From Streptomyces griseus (GTDB lineage: Bacteria; Bdellovibrionota; Bdellovibrionia; Bdellovibrionales; Bdellovibrionaceae): a stretch of 64,000 nucleotides of DNA. The position numbers and the translations under genes are program-made. Below are positions 22,387-53,071 of the stretch, one piece after another. The notes under the pieces were generated by a model. That model worked only from the letters and a program-made list of their open reading frames with translations. It searched no databases and was not told the DNA's origin. The DNA is taken from NCBI GenBank assembly GCA_943330705.2, contig CALQIT020000005.1:1-64000 (forward strand), written 5' to 3'. Position 1 is the stretch's first letter. Each line of letters begins with the position of its first letter.

Positions 22387-23928
22387 ATGTCTAAAATTTT
22401 TGAACTCACTGGATCTGGTGTCACGATTGAGTTAGTCCACCAAGTGGCCTACCGCAAGATCGCTTTGAAATTGTCAGACCAGGCCCGCCAAGAGATGTTG
22501 AAATCTCGGGCTTATATCGAAGGCCGTCTTGCCAATGGCGAGGTCATGTATGGCGTCAATACGGGGTTCGGGGCTTTTAGCTCGGTGCGGATTTCAGACT
22601 CCGAAATTGAGGAGCTGCAACGGAACCTCATTCGCTCCCACAGTGCTGGGATTGGCGCGCCTTTTTCAAAGGAAGAAACCAGGGCAATTATGTTTTTACG
22701 GGCCAATGCACTTTCCCGCGGTCACAGCGGGATTCGTCCCGCAGTTGTTGAAAAAATTCTTGAATTTATTGAGAAAGATATTCTTCCCTATATCCCAAGT
22801 CAGGGAAGTGTTGGCGCCAGTGGCGACCTTGCGCCGCTATCGCATTTGGCATTGGCTTTAATCGGTGAAGGCGAAGTCTGGGGTCCTGACGGAAAACCAA
22901 TTTCTGTGCAACAGGTCTTTGCACAGAACAATTGTCAGCCCTTGGTTTTAAAAGCGAAAGAGGGCCTATCCTTAATCAACGGCTGTCAGGTGATGACGGC
23001 GGTTGGTATGCTGACAGCTTGGGATGCACGTCGTTTTTTGTGGATGACCGATCTGGCGGGGGCAATGTCCCTTGAAGCCTTGCGGGGTTCGCGCAGTGCT
23101 TTTGATCCACTGATTGCGCCGACGCGCCCACATCCTGGCGAGGCAAAGACCGCGCGCAATTTGTTACGATTGATGGGGACAACTTCGCAGATAGCAGAAA
23201 GCCATGCGAATTGTAATAAAGTTCAAGATGCCTATTCGTTGCGTTGCATGCCGGCCGTGCACGGTGCCGCAAAGGACTCTTTGGGTTATGTTTGGAAAGT
23301 TTTAGAAATCGAAGCGAATTCGTCCACTGACAATCCGTTGGTTTTTGCTGATCAAAATAAAGTTTTATCATGCGGAAATTTTCACGGAGAGCCCGTTGCC
23401 TTTGCCCTGGATTTCGCAGCGATCTCAGCCAGTGCGGCAGCAAATATGAGCGAGTGCCGAATTGAAAAGTTAATCAATCCCGCAATGAGTGATCTACCCG
23501 CATTCTTAGCACCCAACGGCGGCTTAAACTCTGGACATATGATTGTTCAAGTTGCAGCAGCCAGCTTAGTTAGCGAAAATAAGATCCTATCCCATCCGGC
23601 AAGCGTAGATAGCATCCCGACTTCCGCTGATAAAGAGGACCATGTAAGTATGGGGACCATCGCGGCCAGAAAGTATGCGTCGATTGTGCGCAATTGCGAA
23701 AATGTGGTGGCCATGGAGCTCCTGTCGTCTTGCCAAGCCTTGGATTTATTGGCGCCCTTAAAGGCGGCCTCTGCAGTTGCAGCAGTTCACGCTTTAGTCA
23801 GAAAGACGGTTCCCTTTGCAAAGTCCGATCGGGTCTTTTCCAAGGACATTGCTGAGATCAGTCGTTTGATTTCCACAAATGAAGTTCTGTCAGTCGTCGA
23901 ACAGGTTGTCGGGCGGCTTGAGTTCTAG
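22387..23928 (+). CDS. hutH: Histidine ammonia-lyase
   Basis: First step of histidine degradation: non-oxidative deamination to urocanate. The self-cyclising Ala-Ser-Gly triad that forms the MIO cofactor is in GSVGASGDLAPL, near residues 143-145, and MYGVNTGFG is present near residue 54. 513 residues, complete. It follows rpe by 44 bp with a good GAGG site seven bases before the ATG. Its last 33 bp are repeated 4.9 kb downstream (see the island feature). hutU lies at 30457 and hutI at 54131; hutG and hutF are not in the window. Confidence 0.96.
   Translation: MSKIFELTGSGVTIELVHQVAYRKIALKLSDQARQEMLKSRAYIEGRLANGEVMYGVNTGFGAFSSVRISDSEIEELQRNLIRSHSAGIGAPFSKEETRAIMFLRANALSRGHSGIRPAVVEKILEFIEKDILPYIPSQGSVGASGDLAPLSHLALALIGEGEVWGPDGKPISVQQVFAQNNCQPLVLKAKEGLSLINGCQVMTAVGMLTAWDARRFLWMTDLAGAMSLEALRGSRSAFDPLIAPTRPHPGEAKTARNLLRLMGTTSQIAESHANCNKVQDAYSLRCMPAVHGAAKDSLGYVWKVLEIEANSSTDNPLVFADQNKVLSCGNFHGEPVAFALDFAAISASAAANMSECRIEKLINPAMSDLPAFLAPNGGLNSGHMIVQVAAASLVSENKILSHPASVDSIPTSADKEDHVSMGTIAARKYASIVRNCENVVAMELLSSCQALDLLAPLKAASAVAAVHALVRKTVPFAKSDRVFSKDIAEISRLISTNEVLSVVEQVVGRLEF
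23896..23928 (+). repeat. attL-like direct repeat (hutH 3' end)
   Basis: The last 33 bp of hutH, including the stop codon. An almost identical copy (32 of 33 bases, C to T at one position) lies at 28774-28806. This copy keeps hutH intact. Confidence 0.75.
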
Positions 23929-24075
23929 GGAGTGTCCGCATTTGTTTAGACCCTTCATTGGCTGGTGGGGTCAATTTTTTGCGGGGCTGGCACCAATGGA
24001 TTGGACTTAGGGCTTATAGTTGAGTGGTTTAGTCCCCAATTGGGCTTAAAAGCCATATATTCATTTTTGTATTGC

Positions 24076-24114
24076 AATAATGTATTTACATTTTTGTATT
24101 TACATGACATTATT
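24076..24114 (+). promoter_or_regulatory. Putative operator of the BrnT/BrnA-like pair
   Basis: An outer inverted repeat AATAATGT / ACATTATT (24076-24083 and 24107-24114) encloses two direct copies of TGTATTTACAT (24081-24091 and 24095-24105). It ends seven bases before the toxin-like start codon. BrnA-type antitoxins are ribbon-helix-helix autoregulators, so this is a natural binding site. Confidence 0.5.
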
Positions 24115-24120
24115 GAGTTG

Positions 24121-24321
24121 ATGAAAATTCAGGGCTTCAGCTGGGATAAAGGCAACATTGAGAAAGTCCAAAAGCACGGACTTTCGATTGAGGAAATTGA
24201 AGATAGACTTCTGTTCGTGGTTTTCACATTGAGGGCTGTGGATGGAGTTTTAAAAGCCAGGGTGATTTCGGCTCGCTATGCTCACAAAAAAGAATGGGAG
24301 AAGTTTTATGGCAAAATCTAA
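24121..24321 (+). CDS. brnT: BrnT-like toxin with internal in-frame deletion
   Basis: A 66-residue protein. Its start FSWDKGNIEKVQKHGLSIEE and end LLFVVFTLR...RVISARYAHKKEWEKFY are the two ends of BrnT-family RNase toxins (usually about 90 residues). The middle, where the family has roughly 25 residues including the HS-x-EER segment, is absent, yet the frame is kept. The protein may have lost toxicity. It overlaps the antitoxin gene by 14 bp in the usual toxin-first order. I start at ATG 24121; the longer frame runs back through the operator. Confidence 0.65.
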   Translation: MKIQGFSWDKGNIEKVQKHGLSIEEIEDRLLFVVFTLRAVDGVLKARVISARYAHKKEWEKFYGKI

Positions 24322-24562
24322 AAAGAAAAAAATAGAAGCCGACCCTCTTGATAGGGATATGTCTTTTCTTTTGAAAGAAAAAGGCAAATGGGTTCGTCTC
24401 AATGAACTTTTTCAAATGCAAAAGAAAAACAAAACCATCACTTTGCGTGTGAGTGATGATTTATTGAATGAGGTCAAAAAAATCGCCAAAGATGAAGATA
24501 TGGATTATCAAAAACTGATAAGAAATATTATTATTGAATATGTGGCGAAGAAGGCTTCGTGA
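24308..24562 (+). CDS. brnA: BrnA-like ribbon-helix-helix antitoxin
   Basis: An 84-residue basic protein starting at ATG 24308 inside the toxin-like gene. Its C-terminal half, ITLRVSDDLLNEVKKIAKDE followed by DYQKLIRNIIIEYVAKK, is a CopG/BrnA-type ribbon-helix-helix DNA-binding domain. The Lys-rich N-terminus includes KGKWVRLNELFQM. Such antitoxins neutralise BrnT and repress the operon. It appears intact although its toxin partner is shortened. Confidence 0.75.
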   Translation: MAKSKKKKIEADPLDRDMSFLLKEKGKWVRLNELFQMQKKNKTITLRVSDDLLNEVKKIAKDEDMDYQKLIRNIIIEYVAKKAS

Positions 24563-24809
24563 TATCCTTGAGTTCCGATTTCATTGCAAGCTCCTGTCAT
24601 CAGCTGGATGATACGGCACTGAGAAAGAGTTGAAAACATATACATCGCCAAGGGGTGTGGTCTAGGCAATGCAGCGGGCGGAGGGCATAGGGCTTTTAAA
24701 GTCCGCCGTACTTTTTGACACAGGGAAGTCGGCAATCATAAGATCTCTTTCGTTTGTCAACCTGCCAATTTCAATGTAAATTTTGCTTTCACAAAAAAGG
24801 GGATCTTCC

Positions 24810-26861
24810 ATGGATATGACATTACTTTTGCCAATAATATTGATTGCCACAGCTGGTGGTCTTTGCTTTTTCATCTTCACTCGGTTTTTAGTCAATGTGG
24901 GGTCAGATGAAATCGCCATTACGGAACGACAATTCGTTGGAAGTGAATTGGCTCCTGGCAGGGTTTTCGCTTTAGACAATGAAGTTGGATTGCGAGCAAG
25001 TTATTTAGCACCAGGACTGCACTTTATACCTTGGCCAATTGTAAAACTATCCAATAAGCCCAAATTTTTAAATATCGATTCCGACGAACTCGGAATTATT
25101 GAAGCAACCGATGGCGTGTCGCTTCAATCAGGGCGAATCTTTGCTGATGATCCAGCTGGCGGAAAACATGACAACTTTCAAAATCCTGTTGAGTTTTTAA
25201 GTGGTGGTGGAATTCGAGGAAAGCAGCTTCGTTTTCTAACCAATGGAACTTTTAAAATCCATCCTGATCTGTTTCGAGTTACAAAAATTAAAAAAACAAC
25301 AATTCCCGAAGGAAAAATCGGAGTAGTGACCGCAGCCGATGGAGCCCCTCTCGGCGGACACTTGCTTTCAAAAAGTATCGATGGTCACGACAACTTTCAA
25401 AAGGCTGAAACCTTCCTACAAAACGGTGGAGAAAAAGGGCCGCAAATTGATTTTTTGCGACCAGGTGTTTATAATATCAACAGCGAAGTCTTTAATGTCG
25501 CCATCCATGATGCAATTCAAATTAGTGAAAATGAAATTGGTGTTGTTGATGCTCGAGATGGTTTACCCATGAATCGCGATGAAGTTGTCGTTCATACACC
25601 TGACAACCATCAATATTTTCAAAATGGCCAGCTCTTTTTAGACAGCGGTGGCAAACGAGGTCCTCAGGAAAGTATTTTAACTCCAGGGACCTACTATATT
25701 AATCCTTATTTGTTTTCAGTTTCAAAACGAAAGCAAACTATCGTTTCTCAGGGCGAAGTTGCGGTATTGATATCCAATGTCGGGAAAGCGCCTGAAGAGT
25801 TTATTCCAAACGAAGCCGAAACGGCCGCCGAGCAAGATAAACATAAAGCAAGGCATGTTGTCCCTAAAGGTTATCGAGGGATCCAAAGAGAAGTTTTAGG
25901 ACCAGGGGCTTATAATATTAATCCCTTAGCCTACACGGTTATCATTATGCCGACGATTACTCGCTCAGTTGATTGGAGTGCCGAGGCTGTGAAAAACAAT
26001 CCCGATAGTAGCTTTGATCCATTTCAGGTTGTATCTTATGATGGCTTTCCGATGCAGGTTGAAGTTCGTTGCCAATATCGGGTACTTCCAGAAAATGCTC
26101 CCTATGTGGTGCAAAAAATTGGCTCGATTGATGAGCTAGAAAGCAATGCTATTCATCCACAAATCGATGGTATTTTTAGGGCCCAGGTGTCTCGCTCCCC
26201 TGCCATTTCCTACCAACAAAATCGTGCTGAAGAGCAAAAGTCCGCCGAGGAAGCCGTCCGTAAGGATCTAGCAAAATATCGAGTTGAAGTCGTATCGGTT
26301 ATGATTACCAATATCCACTTGCCAGAAGCCCTAATGAAAACGACTCAGCAAAAGAATTTAGCTGAACAAGAAAAATCCATGTACGACGCAAAAAAAGATG
26401 CCGAACAGCGACGGATTGAGTTTGAAAAAACTCGCGCGGAAGCCGATATGCAGGTCGATATCATCAAAGCTGAATCAGGAATCAAAGTAGCTCAGCATGA
26501 AGCTAGGCAAATGGAAGAACGAGCTAGAGGAGACGCGTCTCGTGTTCGCATGAGCGCGGAAGCTGAAGCCACACGAACAAAGCAAATAGGTGACGCCGAA
26601 GCTGGTGTTGTTCAGTCTAAAGGGGAAGCGCAAGCTAAGGCCTACCGTGACCAAGTTGCTGCTTTAACCGCCCAAGGGGTCACCACTGTTGAGGTTATCA
26701 AGGCAATTTCAGCAGCAGGCTTGAAAATCACCCCTGACATTCAGATTTCTGGATCTGGCTCACAGTCAGGAGATAGTTCAAACGGCCTAGTTCAGGTTCT
26801 GCTTGCACAATTTATACAACAGCAAAAAAGTGGTCCTGATAGAGCTAACAACAAAAGCTAA
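24810..26861 (+). CDS. SPFH/flotillin-like protein with four tandem beta repeats
   Basis: A 683-residue membrane-anchored protein. One N-terminal helix (residues about 4-25) is followed by four imperfect repeats of about 70 residues (near 84, 160, 235 and 308). Their common pattern is GxIGVV-A-DG, then FQ--EFLxxGGxxGPQ and LxPGxYxINPxLF-V. Next comes an SPFH (band 7) domain (about 380-520, VDWSAEAV through YRVEVVSVMITNIHLPEAL), then a long Glu/Ala/Arg coiled coil and a short Gln-rich tail. SPFH proteins form ring scaffolds at membranes; the repeats recall the stacked repeats of vault-like proteins. I start at ATG 24810 after AAGGGG. A zincin gene follows 8 bp downstream. Confidence 0.8.
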   Translation: MDMTLLLPIILIATAGGLCFFIFTRFLVNVGSDEIAITERQFVGSELAPGRVFALDNEVGLRASYLAPGLHFIPWPIVKLSNKPKFLNIDSDELGIIEATDGVSLQSGRIFADDPAGGKHDNFQNPVEFLSGGGIRGKQLRFLTNGTFKIHPDLFRVTKIKKTTIPEGKIGVVTAADGAPLGGHLLSKSIDGHDNFQKAETFLQNGGEKGPQIDFLRPGVYNINSEVFNVAIHDAIQISENEIGVVDARDGLPMNRDEVVVHTPDNHQYFQNGQLFLDSGGKRGPQESILTPGTYYINPYLFSVSKRKQTIVSQGEVAVLISNVGKAPEEFIPNEAETAAEQDKHKARHVVPKGYRGIQREVLGPGAYNINPLAYTVIIMPTITRSVDWSAEAVKNNPDSSFDPFQVVSYDGFPMQVEVRCQYRVLPENAPYVVQKIGSIDELESNAIHPQIDGIFRAQVSRSPAISYQQNRAEEQKSAEEAVRKDLAKYRVEVVSVMITNIHLPEALMKTTQQKNLAEQEKSMYDAKKDAEQRRIEFEKTRAEADMQVDIIKAESGIKVAQHEARQMEERARGDASRVRMSAEAEATRTKQIGDAEAGVVQSKGEAQAKAYRDQVAALTAQGVTTVEVIKAISAAGLKITPDIQISGSGSQSGDSSNGLVQVLLAQFIQQQKSGPDRANNKS

Positions 26862-26869
26862 GGAGCAAT

Positions 26870-27544
26870 ATGAAATTTCTATTCGTGATTGCATTTTTGT
26901 TTTTGACGCAGCTTCAAGCACAAGCGACGACAGCGTCCGCGCCGAAAATTTTCTTTGAGTACAGTGCGCTCTATGATTCAAACTGCGCCAACACTCCTGA
27001 GCGGAAAATTGAGCCAGAGTGGGTACGGGAAGCCATAGACAGATCCCCCGACTTCAGCAAAATATGGGAAGTCTCGGGGCCTGTTTTATTTGGCAAAGTT
27101 TTTGAGCACTTTGCCAAAGGTTTTCAGCGAAAAGAAATCACCGCAACTCTGTCGGTTTGTCCGGCTTCTTCATATAGTAATCCACTCGTGCTTAATGTAA
27201 CGCGATTTTTAAAATCCTATATGGGCTCTAAGCCAGTCCGCTCTGATGATTCATTTGCGGATTTGGTTTTTCATGAACTGCTGCACTCCTGGCTTGTTGA
27301 AAATGTGGATTTCCCAACCCCTTTGTTCGATAAATACAAAAACGAGGAGCGCGTCGTTCGCAATCATCTGCATCTTATGGCGATGCAAAAGTTTATATAT
27401 ACCGAGCTAAATCGAAATGACTTAGTCCTTATGATCGATAGGCAATACAGCACCATGCTAGGTCCTGCTTACCCCCGCGCATGGGAAATTGTGTCTAAGA
27501 TCGAAGGCTACGAAGCCTTTATCGCAGAAATTAAAAAGAAGTAA
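26870..27544 (+). CDS. Exported putative zinc metallopeptidase
   Basis: A 224-residue protein with a cleavable signal peptide (MKFLFVIAFLFLTQLQAQA). A zincin-like motif FHELLHSWLVE lies near residues 138-148, with the HExxH pattern that binds zinc. A likely third ligand is not obvious; conserved HLHLMAMQKF lies downstream. It starts after AAGGAG, 8 bp from the SPFH gene, so the two should be co-expressed. SPFH scaffolds often partner proteases (HflKC-FtsH), which makes this pairing suggestive, but here the protease is periplasmic. Its substrate is unknown. Confidence 0.65.
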   Translation: MKFLFVIAFLFLTQLQAQATTASAPKIFFEYSALYDSNCANTPERKIEPEWVREAIDRSPDFSKIWEVSGPVLFGKVFEHFAKGFQRKEITATLSVCPASSYSNPLVLNVTRFLKSYMGSKPVRSDDSFADLVFHELLHSWLVENVDFPTPLFDKYKNEERVVRNHLHLMAMQKFIYTELNRNDLVLMIDRQYSTMLGPAYPRAWEIVSKIEGYEAFIAEIKKK

Positions 27545-27597
27545 GGCCCAGGCACATCACTTGCACTTTGATTCTTTGCAGTACTGCAGCCGACCCA

Positions 27598-27647
27598 GGC
27601 GGCCGTAGCGCCAGCTACCGCTGCTAGCTGTGGGCTTTTTTGCCGCC
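27598..27647 (+). terminator. Terminator-like structure after the zincin gene
   Basis: An inner hairpin CAGCTA / TAGCTG (27612-27630) is followed closely by a T6 run, and the whole is enclosed by GGCGGC / GCCGCC. It separates the SPFH-zincin operon from the convergent gene at 27658. Confidence 0.5.
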
Positions 27648-27657
27648 TGAAGGAATT

Positions 27658-28212
27658 CTATGACCTTTTTCCTTTGTAACGATCAGCTCCCAACACCAGC
27701 TGCTCGATGATTTCAGTTTCAGAATTACCAGTTGCTTCTTTTAGTTGCCTTAGCTTTTCTACCACCGCTGGAATAAAACGAAAGGTCTTCATCATTTTTT
27801 TGTTTTGTTCAGTCTTAGTTCTCTGATCCTTCAGCTGAAGAAACATCCAGGTCCTGATCTTCCGGTAAGGAATATTGAAGAAGTCCTTCCCAATCTCTTG
27901 CTTGTTGGCTAAGGCCTCGGCAACTTCTCGTAATTCATTATTTTTTTGCCCTTCAAATATAAAAGCACGGGGCAGCCTGGCCACGGCAGCAGGTAAAACT
28001 TCAAGAATTCGGGGCTCAACCATTTGTCCAGCCCAGATGGCATCCTGTACTCGAACTTTTGGCAGATAGTATTTTGTAAAATCTGCGTTTGCTCTTAAGA
28101 ATCCCTTTTTGACAAAAAAAGCCATAGCTCTTAAGTAACGAATATCCGTTCTTCGTTTGTCATCTAGCTCTTTGGCTTTCTTTATTTTAGCAAGTATTTC
28201 GTTTCGATTCAT
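27658..28212 (-). CDS. Hypothetical protein with helix-rich C-terminus
   Basis: A 184-residue basic protein starting at ATG 28212, preceded by GAGGAAAAT. I do not recognise the family. The N-terminal half has a Lys/Arg-rich helix (MNRNEILAKIKKAKELDDKRR). The last 50 residues (TFRFIPAVVEKLRQLKEATG, then SETEIIEQLVLGADRYK) resemble a ribbon-helix-helix-like DNA-binding segment. A broken gene lies directly upstream, ending 7 bp before this start, so the pair was probably a two-gene unit, possibly toxin-antitoxin-like. Located inside the putative island. Confidence 0.55.
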   Translation of the reverse strand: MNRNEILAKIKKAKELDDKRRTDIRYLRAMAFFVKKGFLRANADFTKYYLPKVRVQDAIWAGQMVEPRILEVLPAAVARLPRAFIFEGQKNNELREVAEALANKQEIGKDFFNIPYRKIRTWMFLQLKDQRTKTEQNKKMMKTFRFIPAVVEKLRQLKEATGNSETEIIEQLVLGADRYKGKRS

Positions 28213-28219
28213 ATTTTCC

Positions 28220-28485
28220 TCACGCAAAGTCCTCGAGGCGCCCTCCTGCTGCAATAATTCTTTTCGTCAAATTGGGGTATTGATCGGAGGTGATAGCTTG
28301 CCTGATAAGTTGCAGATTTTTTTTAGGTGCTTTCACAGCCTTACTTACAAGTGCCGACTCTGGATCAATTATTACGACCTCGATGAACGGCGTAGTGGTA
28401 AGACGCCGTCCTTTCGACGGAGTCCATTTTCGCTTTCGACCTCATCATTTAGCTTGTTAAAAATCTCAGTTAGAATTTCTCTCAT
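28220..28485 (-). pseudogene. Frameshifted small gene upstream of the 27658 gene
   Basis: From ATG 28485 the minus strand encodes MREILTEIFNKLNDEVESE and continues briefly before running into a stop. A second frame then gives a protein-like stretch, PFIEVVIIDPESALVSKAVK and on to NLTKRIIAAGGRLEDFA, ending in TGA at 28220. The two pieces together would make about 88 residues. The switch falls at or near a CCGTC-GAAAG-GACGG hairpin. I read it as a frameshift mutation; a programmed shift or a sequencing error is possible. Function unknown. Confidence 0.5.
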
Positions 28486-28532
28486 AGTATCAGAATAGCA
28501 AGATCAGCGGTCATTTGCAATATTAATGTATG

Positions 28533-28560
28533 TACTGTAATAATATGAATAATTACAGTA
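28533..28560. promoter_or_regulatory. Inverted repeat between divergent island genes
   Basis: Perfect 9-bp arms TACTGTAAT (28533-28541) and ATTACAGTA (28552-28560) with a 10-base spacer. It sits between the minus-strand broken gene and the plus-strand ORF at 28545, overlapping the latter's start codon. This is the position expected for an autoregulatory operator. Confidence 0.45.
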
Positions 28561-28799
28561 TCTTACGGATAACTATTTACTTGCTCAAAAACGGAGCTAA
28601 ATCGCTAGCAGGTTTGCCATATGCAACAGCGCACGAGTTGTTACAGAAATTGGAAAAAATGGACCTCGTGCAGAAGATCAAGAAGCGAGAACTCGAATCG
28701 CTTCTTGAGAAAGTTTTAAGCCTTGTTTCGAAAAGTGACCGAGAAAAATACTATCGACAACGTCGTCGTCCACGTCGAACAGGTTGTCGGGTGGCTTGA
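28545..28799 (+). CDS. Short ORF ending in the att-like repeat
   Basis: Up to 84 residues from ATG 28545 (MNNYSILRITIYLLKNGAKS, then LAGLPYATAHELLQKLEKMD). The middle looks like an amphipathic helical protein. The last ten residues (RRPRRTGCRVA) are encoded by the copied hutH end in another frame, so the original gene was probably cut by the integration junction. No clear ribosome site. Function unknown. Confidence 0.35.
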   Translation: MNNYSILRITIYLLKNGAKSLAGLPYATAHELLQKLEKMDLVQKIKKRELESLLEKVLSLVSKSDREKYYRQRRRPRRTGCRVA

Positions 28800-28806
28800 G
28801 TTCTAG
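28774..28806 (+). repeat. attR-like direct repeat
   Basis: Second copy of the 33-bp hutH 3' end, 4,878 bp from the first, with one base difference. The flanking sequence on both sides differs from that around copy 1. Confidence 0.75.
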
Positions 28807-28832: not shown

Positions 28833-30314
28833 TTACTGGCAGTTGAATCCCCAATTATTATTGGGGGCCGAGGGCGTATTCGGAAAGAGGGGTTTGCATG
28901 GGTGTGCCCACTGCTCGACGCAAAAAGGTGTGGTTGCCGTATTGGCGAACCAACGAAATTGTCCGGCGGTTGCGTAGCCTGCTTCCATGGGTCTGAGCCA
29001 GCGGCCGGTCGCAATGTGGGTTAGTCCAACGTTAAAAATCTGTTGTCCAGAAATTTCATTTGGCAATGGTTTGGGAATGATAGTTTTTAATTCAGAGGAA
29101 ACAGCAAGCAAGAGAGACTCTTTTTCAAGATCGTTAAAAATTGTAATCGCAGGATCACCAATCATATGCCAACCAACACCTGACGGGACGCCCTCTTTGG
29201 CTTCCAAAGCCATATTTCGTGGCTCCATACATGAGTAATACTGGCGAAACGGCGCAACCGGGGGTCCTTCAGTGCCAATTATTCGTGTTTTTCCAACTGC
29301 CGTAATCAGAGGCGCAAGATTTGCCGCATTTGGATTTGAAGGGTAAGGAGGATACGGCACAAAGGGTTGTCCAGGCACAGTTGCAGTAGCTGGTATAAAT
29401 TGAATGCGATCAAAAGCTCCAATGGCACCAGGAGCACTTCCGAAGTCTTTGTAGCCTGCGGCTGTCCGGTTGCGAATTACAACTTCGGCAGCGGTTGAAT
29501 TGCTTCCTTGCAGTTGCTGGGCAATGCGCAGCGGGTCGGGTGCGGTTCTGCCATCTTGAAGTTTACGTAGGTCAGGGGTGATTTTTCCCTTGGCTTTTTC
29601 GCTTTCGTCTTGCGAAAGCATATAGTTGTAACGAATTGGTGTTGGACCAGTCGGTGCAAACATTTTTACTTGTTGGGAGCCAAAGTTAAATGCCCACCAA
29701 TCTTGCTTGCCCTTTGGTTGAATGAAAAGCCAATCACCAAGGATTTTTGTTTGGCCGGCCTCTGAAATATTAAATAGTTTATTGAAGCTGATGCGGTATG
29801 AAACAACTCCTTTGTTATCGATCATGCGTCGGCCAATGGCGGGAATCTCTTTTATTTTCCAGGTCGGTCCGAAATCTAAGCTGGCATTGGTTTGCGATTC
29901 ATTTAATGGAATCGAATGAATCTCGCTTTTCACCATGCGCATGGGAATGCTGACGACAATTTCAACAATCTCGGTTGAAGCTGTTATCAAATTTTTATGA
30001 AAGCCATCGCCAATGATGCTTTCTAGTTTCCACTTGTTGGGATCCGTGCCGCCAAAAAGCAGGGTGGTATCGATACTTGCATCATAATTTACTGAATTAA
30101 CTGAAACGATTTCCTCTGTAGCCTGGGGTTGTCGAGGAGTTTGTGAGAATGCAATATCCTGATCGATTATGATGTTTAAGTCATTTGCAGCAATCATCGC
30201 CTGGGGGCCGGCTTCAATTGCTGTCAAACTTTGGCCATCTTGATTGAAGTACCAAGCTGATGCCCCGATAAAGAATAAACCCAGACCAGCAATGGCAAAA
30301 CGAGACTTCTTCAT
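28833..30314 (-). CDS. Exported protein of unknown function
   Basis: A 493-residue protein. ATG 30314 is preceded by AAAGGGGAAAT and gives MKKSRFAIAGLGLFFIGASA, a signal anchor or cleavable signal peptide. The rest is a soluble periplasmic-looking chain rich in Pro, Asn and Trp (KQDWWAFNFGSQQV, PFVPYPPYPSN) with cysteines in YYSCMEP, FCVEQWAHPC and the final NCQ, which may form disulfides. I recognise no family. It is divergent from hutU. The tail with paired Cys suggests extracytoplasmic stability. Confidence 0.6.
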   Translation of the reverse strand: MKKSRFAIAGLGLFFIGASAWYFNQDGQSLTAIEAGPQAMIAANDLNIIIDQDIAFSQTPRQPQATEEIVSVNSVNYDASIDTTLLFGGTDPNKWKLESIIGDGFHKNLITASTEIVEIVVSIPMRMVKSEIHSIPLNESQTNASLDFGPTWKIKEIPAIGRRMIDNKGVVSYRISFNKLFNISEAGQTKILGDWLFIQPKGKQDWWAFNFGSQQVKMFAPTGPTPIRYNYMLSQDESEKAKGKITPDLRKLQDGRTAPDPLRIAQQLQGSNSTAAEVVIRNRTAAGYKDFGSAPGAIGAFDRIQFIPATATVPGQPFVPYPPYPSNPNAANLAPLITAVGKTRIIGTEGPPVAPFRQYYSCMEPRNMALEAKEGVPSGVGWHMIGDPAITIFNDLEKESLLLAVSSELKTIIPKPLPNEISGQQIFNVGLTHIATGRWLRPMEAGYATAGQFRWFANTATTPFCVEQWAHPCKPLFPNTPSAPNNNWGFNCQ

Positions 30315-30456
30315 AGGATTTCCCCTTTGTATTAGTTTTTCATAGGGTTTCAAAGTTCGCAAGACCGGCTCTTAAGCGCCGCTTCATGATTATATAGGGA
30401 CAGGCCCAAAGTCTTGTGGCAACTTCTTTGACTACACATAAGGCCTAGGAGAAAAC

Positions 30457-32109
30457 ATGTCAGGTCCACGCATTGTTCGAGCCCCAATTGGAAATCAGCT
30501 TTCATGCAAAGGCTGGGTGCAAGAAGCGGCTTTTAGAATGATTCAAAATAATTTGGACCCCGCCGTAGCAGAACATCCAGAGCAACTGATCGTCTATGGT
30601 GGGATCGGAAAAGCCGCCAGAAATTGGCAGTGCTTTGACAAGATTCTATCGGCCCTGAAAACCTTGGAGAACAACGAAACTCTTTTAATTCAATCCGGAA
30701 AGCCAATAGGTATCGTTCGCACCCACGAGGACGCGCCGCGGGTCTTGCTGGCAAATTCAAATCTGGTACCAAAATGGGCAACCTGGGAGCACTTTCACGA
30801 GCTTGATAAAAAGGGCTTGATGATGTTTGGTCAAATGACCGCAGGTTCTTGGATCTATATTGGCACGCAGGGTATCGTGCAGGGGACCTACGAAACTTTT
30901 ATTGAGCTAGGTCGCCAGCATTTCGGGGGTTCGTTAAAAGGAAAAATTATTTTGACTGCCGGATTGGGCGGAATGGGTGGGGCCCAACCTTTGGCAGGAG
31001 TCTTTGCCGGTGCGGTTGTTTTGGCGGTCGATGTTGATGCGACAAGAATTCAAAAACGTCTTCAGACTAATTACATTGATGAGGTTGCAGATAATATTGA
31101 TGATGCGATTTCGCGGGCCCGTCACTATGCAGGGAAAGGTGAAGCCAAATCCATTGCCCTTGCCGGAAATATGGCAACTGTAATTCAGCAGATGTTAGAA
31201 AAAGAATTCATACCCGATGTCCTGACTGATCAAACTTCAGCCCACGATCCTTTGATCGGATATATTCCCGAAGGATACACTGTGACCTCAGCCAAAGCGT
31301 TTCGTGAAAAGGACCAAAAATCCTATTTGGCGAAGGTTTCCGAAAGCATAGTTAAGCACGTGCGTGGCATGCTGGAAATGAAAAGACGGGGAGCAATAAC
31401 TTTTGACTATGGCAATAATATTCGGGCCCAGGCTTTTGAGGGCGGGGTTAAAGATGCATTTGATTTTCCCGGATTTGTACCGGCCTATATTCGCCCTCTT
31501 TTTTGCAAGGGCAGTGGACCTTTTCGTTGGGTTGCTTTGTCTGGCGATCCGGCCGATATCCAAGTCACTGACGATGCTCTTCGTGAAATTTTTCCGCATA
31601 AAAAACATCTTTTGCAATGGCTGGATATGGCCGAAAAACGAATTGCTTTTCAAGGTTTGCCGGCACGAATCTGCTGGCTTGAATATGGAGAAAGGGCAAA
31701 GGCCGGATTGCTTTTTAATGATCTTGTACGCAGCGGAAAAGTAAAGGCGCCACTGGTTATTGGTCGAGATCATTTGGATTGTGGCAGTGTCGCTTCACCA
31801 AATCGTGAGACCGAAGCCATGAAGGATGGCTCGGATGCGGTATCTGATTGGCCGCTCTTAAATGGCATGGTAAATGTAGCTTGTGGGGCTTCGTGGGTTA
31901 GCCTTCATCATGGGGGCGGAGTTGGAATGGGATATAGTCAGCATTCAGGACAAGTGATTGTGGCCGATGGCACAGAGGCCGCTGCCCGTCGCTTAGAGCG
32001 AGTCCTGACCGCAGACCCAGCGATGGGGGTGTTTCGCCATGTTGATGCTGGATACGACGAAGCAAAACAAATCGCCATTCAGCGGGGAGTAAAGAGCCTT
32101 TGGCTATAA
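30457..32109 (+). CDS. hutU: Urocanate hydratase
   Basis: Second step of histidine degradation: adds water to urocanate to give imidazolonepropionate, using tightly bound NAD. The 550-residue product is full length, with NAD-binding [12 protein letters not shown] near residue 169 and the catalytic-cysteine region [17 protein letters not shown] near 436. Start ATG after AGGAG. hutH is 6.5 kb upstream beyond the candidate island, so an ancestral hutH-hutU proximity may have been broken by insertion. Its final codons are duplicated in tandem. Confidence 0.96.
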
Positions 32110-32133
32110 GGAGTAAAGAGCCTTTGGCTATAA
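32086..32133 (+). repeat. 24-bp perfect tandem duplication at the hutU/Agl23 junction
   Basis: Two identical adjacent 24-bp units (32086-32109 and 32110-32133), beginning GGAGTAAAGAG and ending GGCTATAA. The first encodes the end of hutU with its stop; the second supplies the leader and start codon of the next gene. Confidence 0.85.
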
Positions 32134-33698
32134 CTAGAAAACAAATTCTGTATATTGCCGGCACGATTTCAATCTTAATTTTGTTTCATGTTTTTAGAAT
32201 CGATCTCAAGAGCATTCATCATGATGAGTCCATAAATGGATGGTTTCTTTTGCAGATGGGTCGAGAACATTTTTATCGCTATGATCCTAGCAATTATCAC
32301 GGACCTTTCTTTTTCTACTTTGCTAAAATAATAGAGACAATTTTTGGTGCAAATTATCTTAGCTTGCGAATTTCCGCAGCCATATTTTCGGTGATGACTT
32401 GGTCTATGGTGCTCAGTTGGGGCGTCTATCGGAAGTCATCGTTGCAGTTCTTTGCGCTGATTGCAGGACTTGGTCCTGCTGTTCTTTTTTTTGGCCGCAG
32501 TGGAATTCACGAATCAACCTTTGTGTTTTTTCAGGTGATGGTGATGATTGGATTTTTAGAGTGGCGAAAATTTGGCAATACCAAGGGTATCGTGATTATT
32601 TGTTATGGCCTAATTGGGGCAAGCCTGAATAAAGAGACCTTCGTCCTTGGTGTCGTTGCTGCGTTGGTCGGTTTTGTTTTTTCCATGGATTGGAAGCTTA
32701 ATGATCACCCAGCGAATCATTTAGAAGATGGGTCCAACATTAGCTTGAAAGGCAGTTTCAAAAGCAGTTTCAAAAATAATTTCAAGTGGATTGAAGATTT
32801 TAAAACACTGTCATGGTCCGTGCACGGACCGATACTGATTTTTCTGTACTTGGGATTTTTTTCGGGCTTTGGATACAATTGGAATGGAATTTTAGACTCC
32901 ATCCGCGCTTTTTTACCATGGCTAAAAACAGGACAGGCTGGGGCAGGCCACGGTAAACCTTGGTTTTTTTGGTTGAGTACGATACAAAAAAATGAATATT
33001 TTATTTTTACAGCAGTTTTAGTCGCAATTTATTCTGTTTTCACCAGGCAAAGATTGCGACGTGGGCTGGCGGTGTTTGCTATTTTCAATCTATTGATTTA
33101 CTCGGTGATTCCGTACAAAACAATTTGGTGCTTACTTACTATTTCCTGGCCCTTCGTTTTTGTTTTTGGTCTTTTTATTGATCAGCTGACGTTGCCGGCC
33201 AGGAAAGTTGCAACTTTGGCAGTGGTTTTTACGCTAGTAGCATTGATAAATCTTTGGACTTTGCGAAGCATTTTGTTCGTCGCACCACTGAACTATGAAC
33301 ATAACTATGTCTATGTTCAAACCTTGCCGCAGATGAAGGAGTTGAATCAATTTATCCATGCCAAAAGTCGACTATTCCCGGGAAAAATTATAACTGCAGC
33401 GAAAGACGCCTGGCCCTTACCTTTCCTTTTTCACGATATCCCTTCTTATGTCTATCTGAATGAGACCCTGCAGGTTTTAGAAATGGATATGAAGGAAATT
33501 TTAGTTTTAGCAATTGATCAATCTTTGGCGACGAAGCCGCTCTACCAGCTTTATGCAGGTTGGCCGCAGAGAAGTTTTCATATTCGTGAGGCCCGCGAGC
33601 CCGTCATTATTTTCTTTAGGCCGGAATTTTTTCAGAATGATGAGACCTTGAATTCTAATATTTTTGAACCGCATCAGGCGCCGGATTTTTCCCAATAG
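32124..33698 (+). CDS. Agl23-like glycosyltransferase/flippase-associated membrane protein
   Basis: A 524-residue polytopic membrane protein of the GT39/GT-C fold. After the first helix comes the acidic catalytic-loop motif HHDESINGWFLLQMG and then YRYDPSNYHGPFFFY. This is the signature of the TIGR03663 (Agl23, flippase-activity-associated) group, which uses polyprenyl-phosphate sugars. About ten further helices follow. I start at TTG 32124, about ten bases after an AAGGAG formed in the second unit of the tandem duplication; TTG 32100 in the hutU end is the alternative. Acceptor unknown. Confidence 0.75.
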   Translation: MAITRKQILYIAGTISILILFHVFRIDLKSIHHDESINGWFLLQMGREHFYRYDPSNYHGPFFFYFAKIIETIFGANYLSLRISAAIFSVMTWSMVLSWGVYRKSSLQFFALIAGLGPAVLFFGRSGIHESTFVFFQVMVMIGFLEWRKFGNTKGIVIICYGLIGASLNKETFVLGVVAALVGFVFSMDWKLNDHPANHLEDGSNISLKGSFKSSFKNNFKWIEDFKTLSWSVHGPILIFLYLGFFSGFGYNWNGILDSIRAFLPWLKTGQAGAGHGKPWFFWLSTIQKNEYFIFTAVLVAIYSVFTRQRLRRGLAVFAIFNLLIYSVIPYKTIWCLLTISWPFVFVFGLFIDQLTLPARKVATLAVVFTLVALINLWTLRSILFVAPLNYEHNYVYVQTLPQMKELNQFIHAKSRLFPGKIITAAKDAWPLPFLFHDIPSYVYLNETLQVLEMDMKEILVLAIDQSLATKPLYQLYAGWPQRSFHIREAREPVIIFFRPEFFQNDETLNSNIFEPHQAPDFSQ

Positions 33699-48417: not shown

Positions 48418-48451
48418 TCCCGTGTTGGCGAGTCAACCTGGCCGTCTTGGC

Positions 48452-48526
48452 GGCTCAAATTCGATCCTCGACTTGAACTTTGTGGAGAAACATAAAATTT
48501 CGACGCTTCCGGTAAGTTTTGACTGG
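48452..48526 (+). repeat. Dispersed intergenic repeat, copy A
   Basis: A 75-bp stretch repeated at 50742-50816 in the same orientation with 68 of 75 identical positions. Shared blocks include AAACATAAAATTTCGA and CTTCCGGTAAGTTTTGACTG. It lies just upstream of the OsmC-type gene. Nature unknown. Confidence 0.7.
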
Positions 48527-48571
48527 GCGCTTTTCAATGCCCTAGAACATAAATATAGAAATTATGTAAGG

Positions 48572-49846
48572 CTACCGTCTTATTGCTTCGATCTTAAACT
48601 GAGTATTTTTTGATTCTGTACTGTAACTGAGTGTTGCGCCAACTTTTTCCATTGTCATTTTAGCTAGATTTAAACCCAAACCAATACCGGCCCCTGGTTC
48701 TTTAGTCGTAAAAAAGGGAAAAAATATTTTATTGGCAACATCCTCAGGCAGTCCTTTTCCCGAGTCGGTCACGAAAATTTGCAAATACTGAGGCGAACTC
48801 TCCTTGCATTGGATCTCAATCCACTTATCGTGACCCTTGTCGGCAGCCAATGCTTCGATCGAATTGGAAATCAGACTGATTAAAACCTGCGAATAGTGCA
48901 TCAGAGTCCCATTGATCTGATAATCAAGATCAGATGGCGGCACGATCAGTCGAATATTCGCATCACTGATCTGACCACCGACAAATTTCTGCGCATGCCG
49001 AATCGCTTCAAGAGCGCTGCAGCTAGAGTTTGAATCTAGGGTCGTATTGCTTGATATCTCTAGCAGGCTTTTTACAATTTCACTGAGCCTGGCAACAGCC
49101 TCGCGGATTCGGCTTAGTCCTCCGGAAAACTCCGCGAAGTCCACCTGCTCTTTTTCAATTTTGCGCATTAAAATAGAAGCCCTACCGTCAATAATTGCCA
49201 AGGGATTATTAAACTCATGTGCAACTCCGGCTGCCAAAATACCCACAGAGGCCAGTCGATCAGCCTCAATTAGCCGCTCTTTTTGTTTTTCAACTTGATG
49301 GTAGCCACGCAATTTTTGTATGTTAATTAGCGCCGCAAAGCCACATTCACAAAATGTCCATCCATAAAATAGCAGTGGATGAACCTCGGGCTTAGGGGTT
49401 AGCACGGCAACCAAAATAGATCCCGTCAAAATAAAGGCAGAAAAAAGGACAATGCAAGAAATCTGCACTAAAAGAGCAGATACAATAGTTATTAAAACAA
49501 AATACCCCATACAGTAAACTGTATTTAGATGATTTAGATAAAGCAGCCACATAACATGGCCATTGGCAACCATTGCGGCGATGGCTGCAAAAAGCTGAGA
49601 ATACTTTCGTGATCTGTTATTAAATAAAAGAAGCAACAGTAAAGCCATACTGGGTATGGAGCTGAGCAATCTATCAAAATAATTGTCGTTGAAATTCTTG
49701 TCGACAAGAAGAAATACCAATCCAAAAAGGGGATAGATCACAATATGCGCAAGCATTGCAAGTACCGCAGCCCTCACGGTGCTACTATCTGTCGAGTCCT
49801 CGAACTGTTTTAAATTAAATTTGATCATTACCTGAAAGTATTTCAC
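48572..49846 (-). CDS. Membrane sensor histidine kinase
   Basis: 424 residues. The N-terminal 180 residues carry six likely membrane helices with no periplasmic sensor domain. The dimerisation domain has the phospho-acceptor histidine in GVAHEFNNPLAIIDGRASI, near residue 209. The ATPase domain has the N-box LISNSIEALAA, G1 box DSGKGLPEDV and FFTTKEPGAGIGLGLNLAK. No receiver domain is attached and no response regulator is adjacent, so it is an orphan kinase. Start could also be the internal ATG seven codons on. Confidence 0.88.
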   Translation of the reverse strand: MKYFQVMIKFNLKQFEDSTDSSTVRAAVLAMLAHIVIYPLFGLVFLLVDKNFNDNYFDRLLSSIPSMALLLLLLFNNRSRKYSQLFAAIAAMVANGHVMWLLYLNHLNTVYCMGYFVLITIVSALLVQISCIVLFSAFILTGSILVAVLTPKPEVHPLLFYGWTFCECGFAALINIQKLRGYHQVEKQKERLIEADRLASVGILAAGVAHEFNNPLAIIDGRASILMRKIEKEQVDFAEFSGGLSRIREAVARLSEIVKSLLEISSNTTLDSNSSCSALEAIRHAQKFVGGQISDANIRLIVPPSDLDYQINGTLMHYSQVLISLISNSIEALAADKGHDKWIEIQCKESSPQYLQIFVTDSGKGLPEDVANKIFFPFFTTKEPGAGIGLGLNLAKMTMEKVGATLSYSTESKNTQFKIEAIRR

Positions 49847-49895
49847 TTCTACAGGGCAAAGGCAAGACTATGGGAATACTTCCTGGTATTTCAAT

Positions 49896-50132
49896 TTAAG
49901 AAAGCTTGAGAATCCAGTCCCGCATCAATATTTTGATCTGGGTTTGATATTTAAGTCCTTTTCTATCACAAAGGGTGCGAAAGGGTCTGAGAAGATCTTC
50001 AGATACTTTTAGACTGATTAACTTAGCGGGACCTTGGGCCTTTCTGCTGACCGAATGAAGCTGACGAAAATCCTCAAGAAAGCGAAGAATTTGTTCTGGT
50101 GACGGTTTCTTTGTCTGACTTTTTTTTTTCAC
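49896..50132 (-). CDS. Ribbon-helix-helix protein, antitoxin-like
   Basis: 78 residues. The C-terminal half (KLISLKVSEDLLRPFRTLCD then KYQTQIKILMRDWILK) is a BrnA/CopG-type ribbon-helix-helix motif. It starts with GTG overlapping the nucleotidyltransferase stop by 4 bp. The GTG is followed by a run of ten A, a slippage-prone tract. Likely DNA-binding autoregulator of the pair, with the 50-bp palindrome upstream as candidate operator. Confidence 0.65.
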   Translation of the reverse strand: MKKKSQTKKPSPEQILRFLEDFRQLHSVSRKAQGPAKLISLKVSEDLLRPFRTLCDRKGLKYQTQIKILMRDWILKLS

Positions 50133-50602
50133 TTGTTCTCGCTTTGTAAAAGTTTGAGAGCCTTTATATCCGCAAGATCCTGCGCCCGTTCCGTATGTTC
50201 TTTAGTTTGAATCAGCGAACTGATCGAAAGAATCCATATTTTCTTACCGAAGGCAGAAACCGCTACTTTCTCCAATTCTTTTAAGTCCTGGGTTAGTAAA
50301 ATATCAACGACATGTGAAGGGTCCCGATGATCAACAAAGCTCCAGGCAATCAGATTTTTTTTCTCAATATACTCATGGCGGAAATGAAAAATCTCTTTAG
50401 CTGTGACGGGAATTCGTGATTGCAAACCAAGTTCTTTAAGCAACCTTTCTGTTTCAGTAAGAGTTTTTAATTCCAAACTTATGACTAAATCCACATCCAT
50501 GGTTCCACGAACCACCCCGTGCAAGGCGACAGCCATCCCCCCACAAAGAGCATAAGGAATTTTTCTAGCTTCTAGGGCGGAAACAAGGTCAATGATCCAC
50601 AT
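50129..50602 (-). CDS. Nucleotidyltransferase-fold protein (AbiEii/DUF6036-like)
   Basis: 157 residues. IPYALCGGMAVALHGVVRGT followed by MDVDLVIS is the GG...DxD pattern of minimal nucleotidyltransferases used in toxin-antitoxin and abortive-infection modules. The later VVDILLTQDL supplies a third acidic position. The start codon lies inside a 50-bp palindrome, and no ribosome site is visible, so translation may be from a very short leader. With the overlapping RHH gene it resembles a toxin-antitoxin or MNT-type module; activity is not known. Confidence 0.7.
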   Translation of the reverse strand: MWIIDLVSALEARKIPYALCGGMAVALHGVVRGTMDVDLVISLELKTLTETERLLKELGLQSRIPVTAKEIFHFRHEYIEKKNLIAWSFVDHRDPSHVVDILLTQDLKELEKVAVSAFGKKIWILSISSLIQTKEHTERAQDLADIKALKLLQSENK

Positions 50603-50637
50603 AGTATATACTAGTATATACTATGTGGATCATTGAC
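50588..50637. promoter_or_regulatory. 50-bp perfect palindrome over the nucleotidyltransferase start
   Basis: Each strand reads identically from GTCAATGATCCACATAGT inward to the centre CTAG at 50611-50614. The middle contains two direct copies of TAGTATATAC. The palindrome includes the first 15 coding bases (MWIID) and mirrors them on the plus strand. It is a probable operator/promoter, or a cruciform-forming site. Confidence 0.75.
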
Positions 50638-50659
50638 AATAAAAATAGGATCGAGGGAC

Positions 50660-50743
50660 CCGTTTTTCTGGCCGTTTTTCTGGCCGTCTTTCTGGCCGTC
50701 TTTCTGGCCGTCTTTCTGGCCGTCTTTCTGGCCGTCCTTCTGG
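50660..50743 (+). repeat. 12-bp tandem array, seven units
   Basis: Seven contiguous CCGTYTTTCTGG-type units: two with CCGTTTTTCTGG, four with CCGTCTTTCTGG, one with CCGTCCTTCTGG. It is intergenic, between the palindrome and dispersed-repeat copy B. It would read as repeated FLAV if translated, but I do not think it is coding. Confidence 0.9.
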
Positions 50744-50816
50744 CTCAATGTCGATCCTCGACTAGAACTTCGTCGGGAAACATAAAATTTCGAAGCTTCC
50801 GGTAAGTTTTGACTGG
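50742..50816 (+). repeat. Dispersed intergenic repeat, copy B
   Basis: Second copy of the 75-bp element at 48452-48526. Its left edge coincides with the end of the 12-bp tandem array. It lies about 100 bp before the kinase start. Confidence 0.7.
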
Positions 50817-50914: not shown

Positions 50915-53071
50915 ATGAGCGACAAGGTGATGAAACAATTTGGACGGTACTTTCTCTTGGATAAAATTGCCAAGGGGGGAATGGCGGATATTTTCCGTGC
51001 CCGTTTGATTGGTCAAGAGGGTTCCGCCCGTGTCGTTATCTTGAAAAAAACACATTTAGAAAAAGCTCGAGAAAAAGGCTTTGTCGAAATGTTCCGCAAT
51101 GAAATGCGGGTTTCTATGTCCCTCAATCATCCAAACATTGCGCAGATTTTCGATTACGGAACGGACGACGGAGTTCCGTTTATGGTGATGGAATATGTGA
51201 TGGGCTTTAGTTTGCAGCAGCTTCGTCGCCGAGCTTCTGAATTGAATATCCCCATTGCTCCGGAAGTCGTACTTTACATTATTGCTCAAGCAGCGAAGGG
51301 GCTGCAGTATGCTCATGTTGTCACCGATCCAATGACGGGAAAGCAGATGGGTGTCGTTCATCGCGACATCAGTCCGCAAAATGTTTTGATCTCATTGGAT
51401 GCCGTAATCAAAGTGATCGATTTTGGAATTGCCAAGGCCTCAAGTAATACGAATCAAACGATGGTTGGAATTGTCAAAGGCAAGCCACGGTATATGTCAC
51501 CCGAGCAAGTTTTGAATTCGCCATTGGACGGTCGCAGCGATGTCTTTTCTTTAGGAATTGTGTTGTGGGAGCTGTTAACTGGAAAACGGCTTTTTGGTGC
51601 GAATGAAACCAACGAATATTTAATCATGCGCCAAGTTGAAGCCGTCGAAAAACACTTAGAGCCCGCATCCACATTAAATCCTTTGGTAACACCCGAAGTT
51701 GATGCCATTGTGCAAAAGGCGTTAGAAAAAGACAGAAACCTACGTTTTAGTTCGGCACAAGATTTTGCGGATACGATTTCACTGTATCTACGAGGTCACG
51801 GCGGTGCTGAACATTTTGAAAAAGAACTAAGAATTTTAATTCCGAAACTTTTTGGGGATTGGGCTGAAAAATCACGACTGCAAGTTTCTGAACTAATGCA
51901 AGAAGCGGAATACGAACTCTCAAATTTGGGATTGGATCGGACGCTTTCTTTGCAGATTCCCGGCGAGGCCAAAACTGTCGAGGCCGCCGATCCGACAATC
52001 CAGCTACCGTCGATGACGAAAGTGGATTCTGTTGCGCTACCCGGATCGACGGGAATACGGTTAAGTTCTTTGACCACATCGATTCAAGTTAGCCAAAGCT
52101 CTGGCAGTTTGAATGGGGCCAGGACTGGAACTAGCAATGGGACTTTAAATGGAACCTTAAATGGAAGCATGTCCTCGACCCATCAGTATAAAAGAAGTGC
52201 CATCGAGCAATACGCTTTGATTGCCGTCATTAGTTTTGTTTTGTTAGGTGCTATATTGTATCCAAGAATCAAAGAGTGGACCGGAATGGATGCTGGCGAA
52301 AGGGCTCCGGCTATTGCAACAACTCCAACGCAAGTGAAAGAAGATACTCGGTCTTCATCAGGATATCCTGGCGAGCCAGTCGCAGGGGGTACGGCTTCGG
52401 CCAGCGAATTGCCATTCTTTTCGATGGACGGCAAAGCCTTAGCTAAATTTTCTATCAGTAACCAATTAAATCCGGTAAGTCGTCCTGCCTTGTTTGAGAC
52501 AAATGATCAAATAATGGTGCTTAAGTTTGATGGTATCAATGATTGGGTGGACATGGGTTCCATTACGCAAAAAGTAAAAGGGTTAAATGCGCTGCAGTTA
52601 TTTTTTGTGGCAAGAACGACCGAGGACCGGGTTGGTTATATTTTTTCTTGCCAAGATGAAAGCGGACAAAATGATCGGGACTTCATGCGCTTTGGCTTTG
52701 CAGGTAAAAACCGCCTTCGCCTTTTTGGAACGCAAAAAAGCCCAACTGATGCGCCAACCTTGATGTCTAAAACGGCGCAGTTTCAGGTCTATTCGGTTTT
52801 GTATACTAAGTTTTTACGCACGATTCGGGTGAATGGTCTGCCAGTCACCACAATGTCTGAGTCCATTCCCCTAGAGTTCGCAGACATCAACCAGTGCAGC
52901 TTGGGCCAAGAGTTTGACCGCCAAGGACCTAATAAAATTGTTCCATCAGACTTTTTTGCTGGTGAATTAGCAGAAGTCTTAATGTTCGACGGCGAACTGA
53001 AGCCCTCAGATCTCGAAGCCGTTGAGAAAAAATTAATTACTAAATACCGAATCTTTGTGCCGGCACTCTAG
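50915..53071 (+). CDS. Ser/Thr protein kinase with membrane helix and C-terminal LamG-like domain
   Basis: 718 residues. The kinase domain (about 8-300) has IAKGGMADIFRA (Gly loop), KK in VVILKKTH as the likely ATP lysine, VVHRDISPQNVLI, VIDFGIAKA and MSPEQVL. A Ser/Thr/Asn-rich stretch with NGTLNGTLNGS repeats precedes one membrane helix (428-447, ALIAVISFVLLGAILYP). The outside part (about 535-718) is a LamG/concanavalin-like fold: LKFDGINDWVDMGSI and FAGELAEVLMFDGEL. This is a receptor-kinase layout: cytoplasmic kinase, possible glycan or peptide binding outside. ATG after GAGGACTTCGG. Confidence 0.85.
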   Translation: MSDKVMKQFGRYFLLDKIAKGGMADIFRARLIGQEGSARVVILKKTHLEKAREKGFVEMFRNEMRVSMSLNHPNIAQIFDYGTDDGVPFMVMEYVMGFSLQQLRRRASELNIPIAPEVVLYIIAQAAKGLQYAHVVTDPMTGKQMGVVHRDISPQNVLISLDAVIKVIDFGIAKASSNTNQTMVGIVKGKPRYMSPEQVLNSPLDGRSDVFSLGIVLWELLTGKRLFGANETNEYLIMRQVEAVEKHLEPASTLNPLVTPEVDAIVQKALEKDRNLRFSSAQDFADTISLYLRGHGGAEHFEKELRILIPKLFGDWAEKSRLQVSELMQEAEYELSNLGLDRTLSLQIPGEAKTVEAADPTIQLPSMTKVDSVALPGSTGIRLSSLTTSIQVSQSSGSLNGARTGTSNGTLNGTLNGSMSSTHQYKRSAIEQYALIAVISFVLLGAILYPRIKEWTGMDAGERAPAIATTPTQVKEDTRSSSGYPGEPVAGGTASASELPFFSMDGKALAKFSISNQLNPVSRPALFETNDQIMVLKFDGINDWVDMGSITQKVKGLNALQLFFVARTTEDRVGYIFSCQDESGQNDRDFMRFGFAGKNRLRLFGTQKSPTDAPTLMSKTAQFQVYSVLYTKFLRTIRVNGLPVTTMSESIPLEFADINQCSLGQEFDRQGPNKIVPSDFFAGELAEVLMFDGELKPSDLEAVEKKLITKYRIFVPAL

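Follow-up and report, generated by a model that had tools for sequence, protein, structure and literature searches.

The window analysed here, a stretch of 64,000 nucleotides, contains an intact hutH gene and, directly behind it, a 4.9-kb island of mostly decaying toxin-antitoxin (TA) and accessory genes bounded by two copies of the hutH 3' end (Table 1). The contents given by the sequence-only reading, a BrnT/BrnA-like pair, an SPFH-repeat gene, a zincin and damaged small genes, were borne out by family models and frame reading. Alignment to the intact BrnT of the same genome reveals the ~29-residue central gap in the island toxin, which is probably inactive to judge from its sequence; the pair is thus not an intact BrnT/BrnA type II TA module, the antitoxin being intact by model and the toxin lacking these residues.

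Table 1. Features of the hutH island, the second islet and comparable loci of the same genome (G000). Positions are those of the window, which lies on contig C5, unless another contig (C) is named.
Feature	Position	Strand	Basis or remark
hutH, intact, target gene	22387..23928	+	513-aa ORF; ~59-80% aa homologues in most relatives searched
Left repeat copy (attL-like)	23895..23928	+	3' end of hutH, stop codon included
BrnT-like toxin, 66 aa, ~29 central residues missing	24121..24321	+	PF04365, C-terminal part only, 2.8e-8
CopG/BrnA-type antitoxin	24278..24562	+	PF12441 3e-10
SPFH/Band_7 protein with N-terminal repeats	24783..26861	+	PF01145 1.8e-24
Zincin-like protein, HELLH motif	26870..27544	+	sequence
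RHH-type small regulator/antitoxin-like protein	27658..28254	-	weak RHH_1 match, 0.006
Broken gene, frame shifted after its start	~28237..28486	-	three-frame reading
HTH-like ORF, 3' end running into right repeat copy	28530..28799	+	weak TrmB/IclR-like matches
Right repeat copy (attR-like)	28773..28806	+	displaced hutH 3' end
509-aa gene beyond the right repeat copy, before hutU	28833..30362	-	ORF
hutU	30457..32109	+	homologue adjoins hutH in relatives
Second islet, left copy of 89-bp direct repeat	48438..48526	.	87.6% identity
Second islet, histidine kinase	48572..49846	-	NCBIfam
Second islet, BrnA-like RHH protein	49896..50132	-	PF14384 1.2e-4
Second islet, nucleotidyltransferase-like protein	50129..50602	-	inspection only
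Second islet, right copy of 89-bp repeat	50728..50816	.	repeat comparison
C2 islet	42956-43006/44279		last 51 bp of response-regulator gene; ends at stop+1
C4 islet			57 bp at gene 3' end
C8 islet			one of ten in survey
C10 islets			two, in an array
C12 islet			57-bp repeats, 100% identical
C15 islet			3' half of tRNA-Met, 78 bp; NTase-HEPN cargo
C18 islet			tRNA-Leu 3' end; HigBA-type array
Integrase and TA array (L110)	C6 48067-52328		
Related integrase locus	C11 51206-52740		
tRNA-Gln	C11 6781-6856		

The HELLH zincin had no match in Pfam, PADLOC or PHROG; a fragment of its gene (81% aa) lies on C20 at 32678-32773 (L177), ~1 kb from an AbiEii gene. Among other nearby genomes searched, the SPFH gene has one close relative, in G046 (76% aa), and nine further homologues (69-75% aa) were found in Alphaproteobacteria, a Planctomycete MAG and two other Bdellovibrionota (Bdellovibrionales) MAGs. 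This patchy, cross-phylum distribution points to horizontal transfer of the SPFH gene. The family (L079-L088) spans 69-76% identity across Bdellovibrionota, Alphaproteobacteria (including Micavibrio) and the Planctomycete MAG. Just downstream of the homologue in an alphaproteobacterial MAG (L086), two copies of a terminator hairpin (46 bp, 96%; 12087-12132/13229-13274) bracket a 1.1-kb insert of two genes.

The sequence-only reading had the last 33 bp of hutH recur at 28774-28806 with one mismatch. The repeat and its single mismatch are real, and its length is 34 bp: the two copies agree at 33 of 34 positions, with the TAG of hutH inside the repeat. Read directly from the sequence, the mismatch turns CGG into TGG, arginine to tryptophan in the hutH frame. 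The two copies cease to be alike right after the stop codon, where the left one continues with ggagtg and the right one with aagttt, and the sequences beyond are unrelated. The right copy, first described as outside any intact gene, in fact overlaps the 3' end of the small HTH-like ORF, which is read in a different frame. Within the window the pair has a Blast E of 2.5e-8. A 24-bp core, with up to three mismatches allowed, occurs at two places only and had no match in 100 shuffles, and the 34-bp repeat has just two copies in the whole 3.2-Mb genome. A scan of 1,038 genes found copies of gene 3' ends and none of gene starts or middles, which, together with the shuffles, leaves a chance or convergent repeat a negligible probability. 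Neither the rest of the genome nor viral contigs contain a second use of the hutH 34-mer, and the island with its repeat has no match in the phage collection or the viral contigs.

The order fmt-rpe-hutH-hutU recurs among relatives from the family and the order. The gap between hutH and hutU is 13-104 bp in many family members and 103 bp beside the closest hutH (80% aa); in other relatives it measures 1.3-5.7 kb and holds unrelated ordinary genes. No copy of the hutH tail is present in the filled gaps of the relatives examined, and the idea that this gap is a shared hotspot for TA genes was rejected on both grounds. In the window hutU does not follow shortly after the right copy, as had been read, but starts 1.65 kb beyond it. 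The intervening 509-aa gene, for which no homologue was found near hutU in the relatives examined, also separates the two genes, so the island alone is not responsible for their separation, which the earlier reading had suggested as possible. The proposed comparison of hutH-hutU spacing recovered the short gap, but no clean empty site with one 34-bp copy among the relatives, the nearest of which belong to other genera with HutH at ~80% aa. The stop codon of hutU is spanned by a 24-bp tandem duplication (window ~32086-32133).

These comparisons bear on whether anything was inserted at all. Tandem duplication of a segment followed by deletion could account for a shortened second copy with no recombinase involved, the right copy being what is left of a second hutH and the island genes long-standing residents. 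However, the flanks beyond the two copies are unrelated, many relatives have hutH next to hutU with no island genes, and the SPFH gene has a scattered distribution across phyla, all of which makes this history quite improbable. That an insert arrived and duplicated the hutH 3' end is, on the other hand, well supported.

A second islet in the window (48438-50816) is bounded by the 89-bp repeat listed in Table 1, and short TTTCTGGCCGTC tandem repeats are found at its right border. With the kinase at 50915 and the C53 ABC transporter as queries, only distant homologues were recovered, which were uninformative on neighbouring genes. In the relative G046, two small genes are enclosed between the 3' end of an unrelated gene, extending to stop+1, and a second copy of that end 1.8 kb downstream (L056). 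This gene-end repeat and the second islet prompted a survey of the genome, in which 1.25 Mb of the MAG-like assembly (3.2 Mb, 148 contigs) was searched for local direct repeats, with shared coding genes excluded. Ten islets with locus-specific direct repeats remain in the 1.25 Mb, among them the hutH island and the 48-kb islet, once paralogues, a repetitive gene and a dispersed repeat are set aside. Islet sizes range from 1.3 to 5 kb and repeat identity from 77 to 100%. Among the candidates rejected, the 34-bp repeat of L039 lies inside one coding gene, those of L034 and C6:65364 belong to paralogous genes, and that at C4:93500/98935 has a third copy on C8 and was taken as a dispersed repeat instead of a target duplication.

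For the C2 islet an empty site is available: two relatives (G012 and G003) retain the neighbourhood, with the response-regulator and ferredoxin genes abutting. Comparison thus demonstrates insertion for the C2 islet, whose target is of the same kind as that of the hutH island, a gene 3' end. The displaced ends of hutH, C2 and L056 differ from their gene copies by amino-acid-changing substitutions only, which fits dead duplicates that were identical at birth. The displaced copy at C7 derives from the 3' portion of an Rrf2 gene, has lost 194 bp and belongs to a repeat of ~350 bp; the C53 repeat (~280 bp) covers the 5' end of a gene, and that at 48438 is intergenic. A third islet, just past the window on the same contig (L180, 77490-79205), holds AbiEi/AbiEii flanked by 74-bp repeats that derive from the adjacent gene's 3' end; at this site (C5:77490/79132) the gene has a changed C-terminus and the displaced end retains the stop. 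The genome contains about a dozen equivalent repeat-bounded islets, apparently of different age. A genome in 148 contigs of MAG character could also hold assembly artefacts, with strain variants of one 3' end falsely joined around an insert. That explanation is very improbable given copies that differ by up to 20% and carry internal deletions, about a dozen independent loci, and a similar case in another assembly (G046).

TA genes were recognized by family models in nine of the ten islets and in none of ten size-matched random segments, although several of these assignments are weak or single-gene matches and that of the C12 islet is based solely on a 38% match to the C2 antitoxin. The families include BrnT/CopG, BrnA-like RHH proteins, an MqsA-type antitoxin and AbiEi/AbiEii, as well as a nucleotidyltransferase with a substrate-binding partner, HI1419/HI1420-type pairs, NTase-HEPN and Gp49/HTH. 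Models for AbiEii match the genome 15 times. Nine of these hits are substantial, several of the 15 are broken, and the AbiE family is unusually expanded here. When AbiEii loci were chosen blind to repeats, 4/9 proved to be flanked by a strong repeat (at least 50 bits and at least 75% identity), compared with 0/578 random positions outside the known islets; these figures come from about half of a single metagenome-like assembly, with the AbiEii loci sampled in a targeted manner. C5:77490/79132 and C7 are two new 3'-end cases among the repeat-flanked AbiEii loci.

The 3' ends of tRNA genes are a classic integrase target. As the sequence-only reading had stated, no recombinase is visible inside the hutH island: neither Pfam nor PHROG gave an integration match, and a profile of the genome's own integrases detected no integrase-like frame or remnant. 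The search for an integrase elsewhere, which it had recommended, was productive. The C53 TA islet contains a C-terminal remnant of a tyrosine integrase (E 1.6e-5; PF00589 1.7e-4). On C6 an intact integrase (51234-52328) adjoins BrnT/BrnA, HTH and Fic modules, which are separated by copies of the att core GAAAATTGGATGGG; the complement of this core, CCCATCCAATTTTC, is present at the 3' end of tRNA-Gln on C11. A related integrase on C11 has the same att core downstream. The C6 integrase-TA element is likely to represent a living or recent parent type.

From these observations we favour, with moderate confidence, the view that the hutH island is a decayed integrative element, a CIME-like remnant of integrase-type insertion followed by decay. 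A small integrative element carrying a match to the last ~34 bp of hutH would have inserted at the hutH 3' end, and recombination would have kept hutH intact while moving the spare 3' end to the far side, giving attL/attR-like repeats. The recombination genes may then have been lost, or may never have been carried and have been supplied in trans. What remains would be a TA pair with a disabled toxin, the SPFH and zincin cargo and a second, damaged regulator module. Such a remnant would behave as a CIME, with addiction modules delaying its deletion by recombination between the repeats, and TA addiction may likewise explain the retention of the islets. Integrase-type insertion is favoured by repeats that correspond to tRNA 3' halves and to coding ends at the stop codon, by the C53 remnant and by the C6 integrase-TA array. 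For the hutH locus itself, the action of a tyrosine recombinase is the mechanism that we infer as the best one; of the original interpretation, the footprint of site-specific integration at a gene 3' end, the insertion and the end duplication therefore stand more firmly than the recombinase step.

Several observations oppose an integrase. The hutH island has neither a recombinase nor a remnant of one, some repeats exceed the usual length of an att core (C7, C53) or are intergenic (48438), and neither a terminal motif common to the islets nor terminal inverted repeats were found. Since the repeats differ completely from locus to locus, one trans-acting integrase cannot account for all islets. 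Several of these features also agree with capture of foreign fragments without a recombinase, with a long and variable target duplication, after which addiction keeps only the inserts that bear TA genes. Repair of a staggered break, or a single crossover of a circle carrying a short piece of host sequence, would be the possible routes. The range of repeat length (33 to ~350 bp) with locus-specific sequences, the intergenic or gene 5'-end position of some repeats (C5:48438, C53), the lack of shared ends and displaced copies that look identical at birth (C12, 100%) all suit such capture. In contrast, Ku is absent from the genome, which makes capture by NHEJ unlikely. In several repeats the end coincides with a stop codon or the start falls within a tRNA, an arrangement typical of integrase sites, and one islet (C53) keeps an integrase remnant. 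Weighing the 3'-end and integrase evidence against the missing hutH remnant and the differing, long or non-3' repeats, we regard recombinase-free capture as possible but rather unlikely, and integrase-type insertion with subsequent decay as the probable origin of the hutH island.

The route by which TA modules enter chromosomes has been termed unelucidated (PMC7167474). More speculatively, and in our estimate improbably, TA modules of this lineage might gain entry to chromosomes unaided, by a general route in which 30-350 bp of any target is duplicated with no dedicated site-specific recombinase, and the islets would be kept since addiction forbids their deletion.

A CIME is a cis-mobilizable element, a decayed ICE or IME that keeps attL and attR and may undergo accretion (PMC5704250). 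The hutH island likewise has att-like repeats derived from the target site around a segment that lacks integration and transfer genes; gene or tRNA 3' ends are the targets, and tandem accretion is seen in arrays (C18, C6). The islets are, however, much smaller (1.3-5 kb), their cargo consists almost only of TA/defence genes, they occupy many different targets in one genome, and no parent element is demonstrated for the hutH site: the 34-mer is not reused in the genome or the viral contigs searched, and the analogous integrase-TA element sits at another att. As in IMEs and islands at the 3' ends of protein genes, the element-side copy restores the gene and the displaced 3' end marks the far border, but the search of the hutH island turned up no integrase, relaxase or excisionase; without an integrase gene of its own, the hutH island is not an autonomous IME or ICE. 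TA cassette arrays separated by repeats (C18, C10, C6) recall chromosomal integrons, whereas each repeat here duplicates host sequence of its own locus instead of a common attC, and the islet ends have no shared motif. Judged on repeat sequences and islet ends alone, the arrays are not chromosomal integrons, and no evidence of IntI was seen.

TA modules stabilise genomic islands (PMC8978831), and chromosomal TA insertions are known in Escherichia coli, namely mazEF between relA and mazG and ccdO157 between folA and apaH (PMC7167474). These resemble the hutH island in that a selfish TA module with a decaying toxin lies between conserved neighbours. E. coli mazEF was rejected as an outside example of a repeat-bounded TA insertion, as no flanking repeat was found there and hence no insertion scar is visible. 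What is unusual in the present genome is the number of TA-dominated, repeat-bounded islets of 1.3-5 kb. About a dozen scars within one genome, apparently of different age, reveal where insertion took place, which target was duplicated and how the toxin decayed, and this makes both the mechanism of entry and the idea that TA modules survive the element that carried them directly testable. The scars show how selfish gene pairs enter chromosomes and then linger in them.
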